Positions 2,448-6,741 of a stretch of DNA of 19,544 nucleotides are shown here, in pieces. Below the pieces are notes generated by a model. The model was given only the letters and a program-made list of their open reading frames with translations. It was not told the DNA's origin and searched no databases. The DNA is taken from positions 1-19,544 of the forward strand of contig JAMOQH010000026.1 of NCBI GenBank assembly GCA_027064085.1, in the 5' to 3' direction. Origin of the DNA: a bacterium. Lineage in GTDB: Bacteria > UBP6 > JAFGXH01. How positions within the stretch are numbered: position 1 is the stretch's first letter; the number at the start of each line of letters is the position of its first letter. The translations under genes were made by a program, and so were the position numbers.

Positions 2448-2479
2448 TTGTTGCTTCAACAAGATTACACTTTTTGTGT
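2448..2479 (+). repeat. Two small hairpins before the transglutaminase start
   Basis: TTGTTG (2448-2453) pairs with CAACAA (2457-2462) around CTT. ACAC (2467-2470) pairs with GTGT (2476-2479) around five T. They fill the whole gap between the permease stop and the transglutaminase ATG, where a ribosome site would be expected. Confidence 0.4.
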
Positions 2480-2481
2480 TC

Positions 2482-4392
2482 ATGATTGATTTATTTGCAA
2501 TATTATCTGTAATTTTATTTTGGGGATTCCAGACTAATAATATAATTTTTGCAATAATATTAATTATATTTTTAGGATTTCCATTATTCATAAATAGTAA
2601 AAATAGTTTTAGTTTTTCATTATTTAAATTTGCTTCTCTTATTAGTTATTTTTTATTTTTTATTGTAATATACTATTATTTAAATAATAACACATCTTTT
2701 TTTCTTGGAGGGGTACTAAAATGGTCTCCCTTAATACTATTACCTCTTGTTGCTCTTGAATTATATAGTTACGACAAGAAAATACTAATCAAGTCTCTAT
2801 TAATTTTTGTACCTAATGATAATAAAAAAGTTAAAATATTATATTGTTATATCTTTCTGGTTGTACTTGCTGCATCATTAGGAAAAAAGGGATTAATTTT
2901 TTATGTTTTTATATCAGTATTTTTTGCTATTCTTTTATTTTTTATAAAACCTAAGAGATATAGATTTACAACTTGGCTAATTATACTTGTTTTACTTATG
3001 TTCTCTTCATTTATTATACAAAATGGGGTATCTAATTTACATAAAAAGCTTGTGGATACAATGATTAATTTTTTAATGGGTATTGATAGTAATAATATTG
3101 ATATTTCAAAATCATCTACAAGGATAGGCAGTATTGGTAAATTAAAACTATCTGATGAAATAGTTTATAGGCTTAAAGCAGATAGAAATAATTATCCATG
3201 GTATTTAAGAGAAGCTACATATACAAAATATTTTAATGGAGATTGGGTTGCACCAGAAAGCAAATTTCTTAACTTTAATGAAGACCTTTGTTCATATAAA
3301 TTTAATGAAGAAGAAACACTAAGAGCAACTTTGTTTGGTGAATTTAAAAAGCTTTCTATTTTGCCATTGCATACAAGAATAAGTAAAGTGATTAGAAGAA
3401 AAAATAAGGAAACTTTTAGTAAAAATGAACTAATGGTCGTAAAAAGAGAGGGGGTTGAAACAAACTCTATTAGTTTTGAATATTATAAAAGGAATATTTC
3501 CTGTTTGGATAAAAAATTTACCCGTAATGATTTGGCAATTCCTAAAAATGAAAAAATTTATATTGACTTATTTATAAGAAAAGCCAGATTAACTTCAAAA
3601 ACTCCGGTAATGACAGTATTAAATAGGCTTAATTTAATTTTTAATACCAAATACAGGTATTCTTTGGATTTTAAGAAAGGGAAAAAAATAAAATCTCCAT
3701 TAGGTAGTTTTTTACTTGAAAGAAGGGCTGGACATTGTGAATACTTTGCAACAGCAACAACTCTTATTTTAAGAGAACTTGGTATTCCTGCAAGGTATAC
3801 AGTTGGATATTCCGTTCAGGAGTATAGTGAATTAGAAAATGCTTTTATTATAAGGCAAAGGCATGCTCATGCTTGGGTGAGGGTATTAGTTAATAATGAA
3901 TGGTATAATTTTGATACAACTCCATCTTCTTGGTTAGAGATTGAAAATAAGAAATTTGCTTTCTATTATAAAATATATGATTATTTATCATATATTGAAT
4001 ATAAGTTTAAAAGCTCTTCAATTTGGAGCTTTATAAAAAATAACTATCAATATAGTATCGTACTTTTAATTATTATTTTTATTGTAATAAGATATAAAAA
4101 TAGAAATAAACAAAATAAAAATAAACTTATTATCAAGAAAACTTCAAAAATATTTAAAAAAGTAGATAAAATACTAAAATCAAAGAAAATTATTCGTAAT
4201 AAAGATATTCCAATTGAAATTTGGTTAAATAATTTAAGTAAACAAGATAAGGATTTAATTAGATCTGTTGAATTACATGAAATAATTAGTTTATATTACA
4301 TAGTTAGATTTAGTGATAAGGAAGTATCTAAAAATGGTTTAAAATTAATATATAGAAAAATAAATACTTGGAAAAAGCTATTAAAAAAGTAA
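2482..4392 (+). CDS. TgpA-like membrane transglutaminase
   Basis: This protein of about 636 aa has six or seven hydrophobic N-terminal segments (residues about 1-185), an extracytoplasmic middle region, and a transglutaminase-like core. The catalytic triad is visible (numbered from the GTG two codons upstream): C421 in GHCEYFA, H465 in HAHAWVRV, D480 in FDTTP. One more membrane helix follows (about 526-540). The cytoplasmic tail, with LYYIVRFSD near 608-616, resembles DUF4129. This order matches the TgpA/DUF3488 family, thought to act on envelope protein or peptide substrates; the true reaction is unknown. The ATG at 2482 is preferred over GTG at 2476, but neither has a Shine-Dalgarno site. 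Many homologues sit beside a MoxR ATPase and a DUF58 gene, and neither is here. The gene runs convergently into the next one with only 4 nt between stops. Confidence 0.88.
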   Translation: MIDLFAILSVILFWGFQTNNIIFAIILIIFLGFPLFINSKNSFSFSLFKFASLISYFLFFIVIYYYLNNNTSFFLGGVLKWSPLILLPLVALELYSYDKKILIKSLLIFVPNDNKKVKILYCYIFLVVLAASLGKKGLIFYVFISVFFAILLFFIKPKRYRFTTWLIILVLLMFSSFIIQNGVSNLHKKLVDTMINFLMGIDSNNIDISKSSTRIGSIGKLKLSDEIVYRLKADRNNYPWYLREATYTKYFNGDWVAPESKFLNFNEDLCSYKFNEEETLRATLFGEFKKLSILPLHTRISKVIRRKNKETFSKNELMVVKREGVETNSISFEYYKRNISCLDKKFTRNDLAIPKNEKIYIDLFIRKARLTSKTPVMTVLNRLNLIFNTKYRYSLDFKKGKKIKSPLGSFLLERRAGHCEYFATATTLILRELGIPARYTVGYSVQEYSELENAFIIRQRHAHAWVRVLVNNEWYNFDTTPSSWLEIENKKFAFYYKIYDYLSYIEYKFKSSSIWSFIKNNYQYSIVLLIIIFIVIRYKNRNKQNKNKLIIKKTSKIFKKVDKILKSKKIIRNKDIPIEIWLNNLSKQDKDLIRSVELHEIISLYYIVRFSDKEVSKNGLKLIYRKINTWKKLLKK

Positions 4393-4396
4393 TAAA

Positions 4397-5668
4397 CTAT
4401 TTATATTCTCCAGAAACATATCTATCTTCAATTCTTAACCATGATTCTATACTTCTTTCAAGATATAAGGCATATTCTGGATTATCCAGTTTAACTAAAA
4501 CTTTATCTTTTCCATTTTTTAGAATTGCTCTTACTTTATAGCTATAAGTGGTGCTATTTTTATTTTTATGAATATATTCTTTCACATATATTTGGGATAT
4601 TTTATCTGATATAAAAATTTTCATTGGAAAGTGTGGCAACGGTTTAGATTTAATAATTATACTTTGTTTTGTAACATTAATATAAACTTTGTTTATTATA
4701 TCAATCAGCCCGGTATAAGCTATTGCAATAGCAAATAAAGTGAATATTAATGCCGTTGGGTTATTACTTGAACCATACGATAATGCAAAGAGTGACATTA
4801 TAATAGCAATAAAAATGGATATAAAACCTGATTTTACATTTAATTGAGTTTCTATATGTAATTTTGAGCCAGTATTTTTAACAATTATACCATTTGGTGC
4901 AATAATACTAATCTTTTTTCTTGCTTTTTCTTCTTGATTTAGGGTTTTTATTTGCCTTATTGTATGGCAATTTTCGCAATATCCTATGTTTTTTTCTATA
5001 TTTAATCTTTCTTTTTTTAGTGGCTGTTCACATACTTTGCAAATAATCTTATTATTCATTTCAGCCCTTGATACTGTTTTTTTATAATTTAACTCAAGAT
5101 TACTATTGATATTATCAAATGTTTTAGGTTGGGTATCAAGTAAATTTGATGTAAAAATATCTTCTTTTTCCATTTTAAGTGTTGTTGGTTGTAAATCATT
5201 TTTAGGTTTAATTTCTACTTTTACCGAACCCCCCAGTTCACTTAATTTATGCACAGTATGGGCAGGTTTTTCCTGCTCTAAAGGTTTTTCTGTTTCTAAA
5301 ATATCTGTTTGTTTTGTGGGATTTTCATGTGTTTGGGAGTTGGTAGCCTCCATTTCAGGATCAGTACGGGAGCTTACTGCTACATTATGGGTTTCATATT
5401 TATCGTAATGTTCAAAAACCTTGTAAAATATTTTTAAATCCCTGTCATAATCATTATTGTAAAAAAAATCTGTTATAGTTTTATTATCTTTTAATTTATT
5501 TAATTCATCTTCTATTTTTGATGTTCCTTCCCAGTCCATATCTTTTATTTCTTTGTATTTTTCAACAAATGCTTCATTGTCATTAAAAATATCTTTAACT
5601 TTATGAACTTCTTTTCCATTAATTATTTTTTCTTCTATTGATTTAAATCTATAATTTAGCTCTTTCAT
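4397..5668 (-). CDS. Zinc-ribbon, two-TM, PH-like protein, paralogue B (423 aa)
   Basis: No named family is recognised. Order of parts: an N-terminal globular region (1-88) ending in ITDFFYNNDYDRDLKIFYKV; a long polar linker (about 92-205) rich in Thr, Glu, Pro and Lys; a zinc ribbon with C210-X2-C213 and C231-X2-C234; two hydrophobic helices (about 281-300 and 305-325); and a C-terminal domain with IYVKEYIHKN, YKVRAILKNGKDKVLV and YLERSIESWLRIEDRYVSGE. That last pattern (a beta-rich domain ending in an I/L-E-x-x-I/L-E helix and a GE tail) matches, from memory, the PH-like end of many uncharacterised zinc-ribbon membrane proteins in bacteria. It is clearly a duplicate of the gene next to it, sharing all four parts except the long linker. 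AGGAG stands 5 nt before the ATG. The gap to the upstream paralogue is 14 nt, so they form one operon. The role is unknown, perhaps membrane-linked sensing. Confidence 0.82.
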   Translation of the reverse strand: MKELNYRFKSIEEKIINGKEVHKVKDIFNDNEAFVEKYKEIKDMDWEGTSKIEDELNKLKDNKTITDFFYNNDYDRDLKIFYKVFEHYDKYETHNVAVSSRTDPEMEATNSQTHENPTKQTDILETEKPLEQEKPAHTVHKLSELGGSVKVEIKPKNDLQPTTLKMEKEDIFTSNLLDTQPKTFDNINSNLELNYKKTVSRAEMNNKIICKVCEQPLKKERLNIEKNIGYCENCHTIRQIKTLNQEEKARKKISIIAPNGIIVKNTGSKLHIETQLNVKSGFISIFIAIIMSLFALSYGSSNNPTALIFTLFAIAIAYTGLIDIINKVYINVTKQSIIIKSKPLPHFPMKIFISDKISQIYVKEYIHKNKNSTTYSYKVRAILKNGKDKVLVKLDNPEYALYLERSIESWLRIEDRYVSGEYK

Positions 5669-5682
5669 AAAACTCCTTAATT

Positions 5683-6741
5683 CTATTCATTTTCATCATA
5701 AAATGCTAGATCGTTATCAATATTATATTCAAAAGGTACAATTTTATCTTGTATATTTAAATATTCTTCAATTTGGTATTCTAGATAACTTGCTATTTTA
5801 GGATTTCTTGTTTTAAGTAGTAAAATATGTTTTTCTCCTTTTAATATGGCTTTTAATGCATATTTATCAAAATAATTTTTTTTATCTGAATAATCAGTGT
5901 CTGCATCTAATTCTCTTTTCCCTATTTTTTTTACATAGAGTTGTTCTAGTTTTTTAAGGTTAATTTTTTTAGTTGCAGATAATCCAAAAGGTTTATGTCC
6001 TACAATTAGAAAATGCTCATTTATTTCTATATATTGCCTAGGAATAGCTACTGCAAAAGAGAAAAATATACCGCCTATATATATCAAAGTTTTAAGAATG
6101 CTATTCATTTCTATTCCACCTGTTATTATAATTGAAGCTGGAATTAAAGAAATTAAAAAAAGCAAACTTAATAGAATAAATTTACCTTTTTTAGAAGGCA
6201 TTTTTACTAAAAATTTATCTTTTTTTATTATTACATCTATATTTCTTGGTGCTTCTAAATTCTCTTTAATACTATGTTCTGGTTCTTTCATAAAAATAGT
6301 TCTTTCTCTATGGCATTTTTTACAATATGCCTTGTTTCTTGTTGGATCCATATTTCTTAAGCTTAGTGGAGTGTTACAAGTACCACAAACAGGTATTAAA
6401 ATTAAATTTTTTCTAGGTTTAATTGTGGAGTATGTGCTTTTAATTTCATTATTATTAGAACTATCCTTTAGTTTGTCTATTTCTTCCTGAGTAAAGTTTA
6501 CTTTATAAAAAATTTTTTTATTAGTTTTTGGGTCATCTCTGTAAAAAAAATCAATAATTTCATTATTTAGTTTAGACTTTCTTAATTCTTCATTAATTTT
6601 CTTTCCTAAGTTCCAATCAGAAGGTGCAATTGCTTTATAAGTATAAATAATGACTTTTTGCGTAGTATTAATATTTATTGCATTATAAATATTTCTTTCT
6701 ATTTGAGAGATTAATTTATATTTATTATTTAATAATTGCAT
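5683..6741 (-). CDS. Zinc-ribbon, two-TM, PH-like protein, paralogue A (352 aa)
   Basis: This is the first gene of the minus-strand pair and the more compact copy. Residues 1-82 (KYKLISQIERNIYNA near the start; EIIDFFYRDDPKTNKKIFYK at the end) align with the N-terminus of the neighbour and faintly resemble a protein-kinase N-lobe without a glycine loop or a C-lobe. A zinc ribbon follows (C119-X2-C122, C140-X2-C143). Two membrane helices lie at about 187-207 and 215-233, and a PH-like C-terminal domain spans about 235-340 (LEQLYVKKIG, YALKAILKGEKHILLL, LEYQIEEYLNIQDKIVPFE). The acidic tail IDNDLAFYDENE is unique to this copy. The topology would put both soluble ends on one side of the membrane, probably the cytoplasm. 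AGGAG lies 5 nt before the ATG, in the same AGGAGTTTT-ATG context as its paralogue. Function is unknown. Confidence 0.82.
   Translation of the reverse strand: MQLLNNKYKLISQIERNIYNAININTTQKVIIYTYKAIAPSDWNLGKKINEELRKSKLNNEIIDFFYRDDPKTNKKIFYKVNFTQEEIDKLKDSSNNNEIKSTYSTIKPRKNLILIPVCGTCNTPLSLRNMDPTRNKAYCKKCHRERTIFMKEPEHSIKENLEAPRNIDVIIKKDKFLVKMPSKKGKFILLSLLFLISLIPASIIITGGIEMNSILKTLIYIGGIFFSFAVAIPRQYIEINEHFLIVGHKPFGLSATKKINLKKLEQLYVKKIGKRELDADTDYSDKKNYFDKYALKAILKGEKHILLLKTRNPKIASYLEYQIEEYLNIQDKIVPFEYNIDNDLAFYDENE

Follow-up and report, generated by a model that had tools for sequence, protein, structure and literature searches.

A paralogous pair of bacterial membrane proteins predicted to combine a kinase N-lobe-like domain, a zinc ribbon and an EROS-like split PH module

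Pseudokinases as usually described retain both lobes. A review of bacterial pseudokinases (PMC12599244) names the N-lobe once, and the terms 'zinc', 'PH domain', 'Sel1' and 'truncat' are absent from its text. In the literature searched, no paper was found on N-lobe-only kinases or on the ribbon–hairpin–PH module described here. Back-to-back dimers of the kinase PknB have been observed (PMC6333020). Among membrane proteins, human EROS (CYBC1, C17orf62) is a chaperone of gp91phox and binds TM helices 2 and 6 of this client with its own two helices (PMC12658887), and it has been reported as an orthologue of the photosystem I assembly factor Ycf4 (PMC5379978).

The window, that is, the whole stretch of DNA that was analysed (19,544 nucleotides from a bacterial contig), contains two genes, p2 and p1, both on the minus strand and arranged head to tail, with a gap of 14 nt from the stop of p2 to p1. 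The sequence AGGAGTTTTATG is present at both gene starts. The features of the pair are as follows (positions in the window).

5683-6741, minus strand: gene p2, 352 residues, upstream member of the pair (open reading frame, AGGAG directly 5' of the ATG)
6478-6741, minus strand: p2 N-domain, residues 1-88, kinase N-lobe-like with the order β1-β2-β3-αC-β4-β5 (AlphaFold2, Foldseek, VIA)
6304-6396, minus strand: p2 predicted zinc ribbon, residues 116-146, with C119, C122, C140 and C143 (alignment)
5749-6246, minus strand: p2 predicted PH-like barrel split by a TM hairpin, residues 166-331, EROS-like layout (AlphaFold2, VIA)
6049-6186, minus strand: p2 predicted TM hairpin, residues 186-231 (AlphaFold2 helices 186-206 and 212-231)
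4397-5668, minus strand: gene p1, 423 residues, downstream member of the pair (open reading frame, AGGAG directly 5' of the ATG)
5405-5668, minus strand: p1 N-domain, residues 1-88, kinase N-lobe-like, homologous to the p2 N-domain (alignment)
5054-5395, minus strand: p1 linker, residues 92-205, far longer than its p2 counterpart (alignment)
4955-5050, minus strand: p1 predicted zinc ribbon, residues 207-238, with C210, C213, C231 and C234 (alignment)
4427-4894, minus strand: p1 predicted split PH barrel with TM hairpin, residues 259-414, EROS-like (AlphaFold2, Foldseek, VIA)
4694-4837, minus strand: p1 predicted TM hairpin, residues 278-325 (AlphaFold2 helices)

The short distance between the genes suggests that p2 and p1 are transcribed together. 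Neither promoter nor terminator scans of the region gave an excess over shuffles, so the suggestion of an operon comes from the spacing alone. Nothing in the gene neighbourhood tied the pair to a kinase or to an evident membrane partner. A gene for a large membrane protein with a transglutaminase core (TgpA-like) lies at 2476-4392 of the window and is convergent with the pair.

The initial annotation had recognized the same four parts in both proteins, and these are true paralogues: BLASTP aligned p1 and p2 both from the ribbon to the C-terminus (E = 4e-15, 27% identity over 230 residues) and over the N-domain (E = 2e-9, 37% over 87 residues). The cysteine positions that it quoted are exact; these residues are the sole cysteines in each protein, and they form two CxxC knuckles with the spacing CxxC-17-CxxC, as in the third paralogue p3 (see below), which is the pattern of a predicted zinc ribbon. 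The N-terminal motif given as FFY..D....KIFYKV is found in both proteins, but its gap is of five residues (FFY..D.....KIFYKV), not four.

Two further paralogues are encoded in the same genome. The third full copy, p3 (375 residues), is located at G000:C103 8539-9666. The fourth protein, p4 (622 residues; G000:C165, L008:5609-7477), shares only the N-domain; one TM helix comes next and then Sel1 repeats with paired cysteines, which suggest an extracytoplasmic location for the repeats. N-domain identities are 49% for p1 and p4, 44% for p2 and p3, and 36% for p1 and p2. Across the four copies (28-49% identity) D42, W43, E52, K76, F78, Y79 and K80 are invariant. In a tree of the C-terminal module (the C-module), p2 groups with p3 as its sister (support 98/96) and p1 falls outside, so the neighbours p1 and p2 are not the product of a recent duplication; the earlier description of them as a tandem duplicate was too simple.

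The AlphaFold2 models draw on four sequences, and on only two in the N-domain. For residues 196-423 of p1 the mean pLDDT was 77.9, and the model has two strands before the hairpin and six strands and a helix after it. VIA alignments of the p1 C-module with PH/PTB domains extend to both sides of the hairpin yet match only 80-106 residues, which suggests a hairpin inserted into the barrel. A PH-like end had been anticipated and is borne out in the models of both proteins; the hairpin and the PH-like end had been listed as separate parts and both are predicted, but the models, like EROS, have the hairpin set within the PH barrel. The hairpin has basic residues on either side, from which a cytoplasmic location is expected for the N-lobe, ribbon and barrel alike.

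When the p1 C-module was searched against 350,542 chains using Foldseek, EROS (PDB entry 8kei, chain D) was the only match to pass E 0.001, at 2.6e-6, with a TM-score of 0.71 by EROS length. VIA gave Z 11.6 for the same chain, with 3.0 Å over 149 residues; the next row had Z 8.9. For the p2 model (mean pLDDT 65.8), EROS was also first, at Z 10.3, but with 6.5 Å and tied with kinase rows. EROS was not among the matches of a PDB sequence search with the bacterial family profile. The Ycf4 profile (PF02392), run on ten genomes, had no match at the module loci. Sequence kinship of the module to Ycf4 was also considered using three Ycf4 sequences from genomes passing the family cut-off, and was rejected: local and global hhalign comparisons were no better than shuffled or reversed controls. 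The likeness to EROS is thus one of fold.

The C-module could instead be a lipid- or peptide-binding PH/PTB anchor that positions the N-terminal parts, its resemblance to EROS being a convergence in placing a hairpin in a PH fold. Many PH/PTB domains match at Z 7-9, and this reading accords with the lack of sequence kinship to Ycf4. We nevertheless consider it unlikely, if worth keeping in view, as EROS alone passes the Foldseek threshold, is matched colinearly along its whole chain, hairpin included, and leads the next row by almost 3 Z units.

Scans of p1 and p2 against Pfam and NCBIfam returned only sub-threshold zinc-ribbon, LIM, DksA and DUF6585 matches, in agreement with the expectation that no named family covers either protein at full length, and no Pfam or NCBIfam family covers the ribbon–hairpin–PH module above its own cut-off. 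The module represents a bacterial family that has no name and occurs patchily; the suggestion that the C-terminal half belongs to an uncharacterized group of zinc-ribbon membrane proteins was correct. At E 0.001 the C-module profile matched 12 of 386 diverse genomes, some matches being partial, and in another phylum four of 39. Stand-alone forms were found in one Chitinophagales and one Planctomycetaceae genome, and the N-domain was absent from all inspected C-module relatives. The combination of half-kinase, ribbon and EROS-like module is in no family library searched here. Surveyed for pairs, C-module homologues proved to occur singly for the most part; one other genus carries a run of three tandem copies, in two sampled genomes (G154 and G290; L087:5022-8140 and L088:4815-7525), so the module family has multiplied locally elsewhere too.

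Alternatively, p1 and p2 might be one-component membrane sensors whose ribbon reports zinc or redox state, the half-kinase lobe serving as a ligand-binding domain in its own right. The four ribbon cysteines are, as noted, the only ones in either protein, and a ribbon heads nearly all stand-alone relatives of the module. The Pfam and NCBIfam scans, however, found no output domain (catalytic, DNA-binding or cyclic-nucleotide) in p1 or p2, and a ribbon-less module is present in both other sampled genomes of the same family (L058:1480-2010, 176 residues; L059:98-613, 171 residues), which makes the ribbon dispensable to the module. We regard a sensor of this kind as improbable.

The N-domain had been noticed as a part common to both proteins, but its predicted fold, that of a kinase N-lobe, had been missed. 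In the AlphaFold2 model of p2 it comprises strands 8-15, 18-23 and 29-38, a helix at 40-58 and strands 64-70 and 75-84, with pLDDT mostly 71-82 in this block; after β5 the chain exits the fold into the linker without a C-lobe. The top two Foldseek matches of the p2 N-domain in the PDB were kinase N-lobes (probability 1.00, E = 0.04). VIA superposed the N-domain on PknA with Z 10.1 and 2.2 Å over 84 residues, from residue 1 to past β5, and on SRPK1 with Z 10.2 and 2.6 Å over 79 residues. Sequence comparisons point the same way with less force. Compared with 14 kinase N-lobes of the same genome, the N-domain profile scored above 298 of 300 column shuffles, with an hhalign probability of only 3.5%. 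In single-sequence comparisons, kinase N-lobes scored above open-reading-frame decoys (p = 0.012), a weak excess, with higher single scores for some decoys. Taken with the models, we consider it highly probable that residues 1-88 are a kinase N-lobe.

No GxGxxG, HRD or DFG motif was found in p1 or p2. The position aligned with the VAIK lysine is Y33 in p2 and glutamate in p1, p3 and p4, and the alignment to kinases places the αC glutamate at 51 or 52, Glu52 being invariant in the four copies. Lacking a C-lobe, glycine loop and VAIK lysine, the N-domain is a half pseudokinase and, judged from the model, is not expected to phosphorylate or to bind ATP in the canonical manner. PF00069 (Pkinase) had no match in p1 or p2 at E 10, and a genome-wide search with it also omitted both loci; it returned 25 matches in this genome, of which 24 were above the cut-off.

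Two of the kinases of this genome have features of their own. A 377-residue kinase (L047, G000:C110) looks intact, has two C-terminal hydrophobic segments spaced like a TM hairpin and has an N-lobe (LNNKYHLTEI...) that resembles the N-domain by eye; a 526-residue kinase (L050, G000:C106) has a zinc-ribbon-like stretch, CPDC...CEQC, shortly N-terminal of its kinase domain.

A search of 28 genomes of the phylum yielded the N-domain in this genome alone, in the four proteins. Two PDB sequence matches of the N-domain (E = 0.4 and 0.66) were weak and were put down to chance. Matches in other genomes (E = 0.005-0.2) were discarded, those read in frame being unrelated or non-coding, and a scan of viral contigs gave no match. 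That the domain is only a leftover of a truncated kinase gene, inactive, fused by chance and drifting without function, is very improbable: although it was seen in only one genome of the phylum and has lost its catalytic features, four paralogous copies are still open and share the invariant residues listed above, and the domain occurs in two architectures.

The reading that we favour, and hold tentatively, is that p1 and p2 are co-expressed inner-membrane adaptor or assembly proteins in which the half-kinase lobe is a docking module. The EROS-like layout of the models would place the N-lobe, the ribbon and the PH barrel all on the cytoplasmic side of the membrane. By analogy with EROS, which holds gp91phox via two helices, the split-PH module would grip a membrane partner within the membrane, and the half-kinase lobe, carried on flexible linkers of differing length, would offer a cytosolic surface for docking proteins. 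Its docking partners may perhaps be some of the full Hanks-type kinases of the genome, which would be able to dimerize back to back. Each paralogue could bring this docking lobe to a partner of its own, p4 on a TM anchor with cysteine-paired Sel1 repeats.

A more specific form of the adaptor reading is that the module is a bacterial EROS-like chaperone family, wired here to Ser/Thr kinase signalling by pairing of the dead half-kinase lobe with full kinases. We think this form doubtful. An N-lobe that stands alone and has been reused repeatedly would itself be an uncommon use of the kinase fold.

Of the families to which the pair can be compared, DUF6585 (PF20226) gives p1 a weak match over the TM hairpin and the following PH strands (E = 6.6e-4, 19.6 bits); the p1 scores of 17.7-19.6 bits are under the curated cut-off of 27.7, and p2 has no match. 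With Hanks-type kinases and pseudokinases (PknA/PknB, MviN and the families of PMC12599244), residues 1-88 of p2 have the N-lobe fold in common in the model, whereas p1 and p2 are without the C-lobe, glycine loop, VAIK lysine and HRD/DFG, and go unseen by the Pkinase model. To the eye, the hairpin, PH-like strands and C-terminal helix of Ycf4 follow one another in much the same way. In EROS, the strands, the TM hairpin, the rest of the PH-like barrel and the C-terminal helix are colinear with the p1 model over 149 of 164 residues, at an identity of ~14-17% in the structural alignment; unlike p1 and p2, the matched chain has no zinc ribbon or kinase lobe. A patchy bacterial module with this layout would be a prokaryotic candidate for the origin of the EROS/Ycf4 chaperones, or else a convergent counterpart of them.
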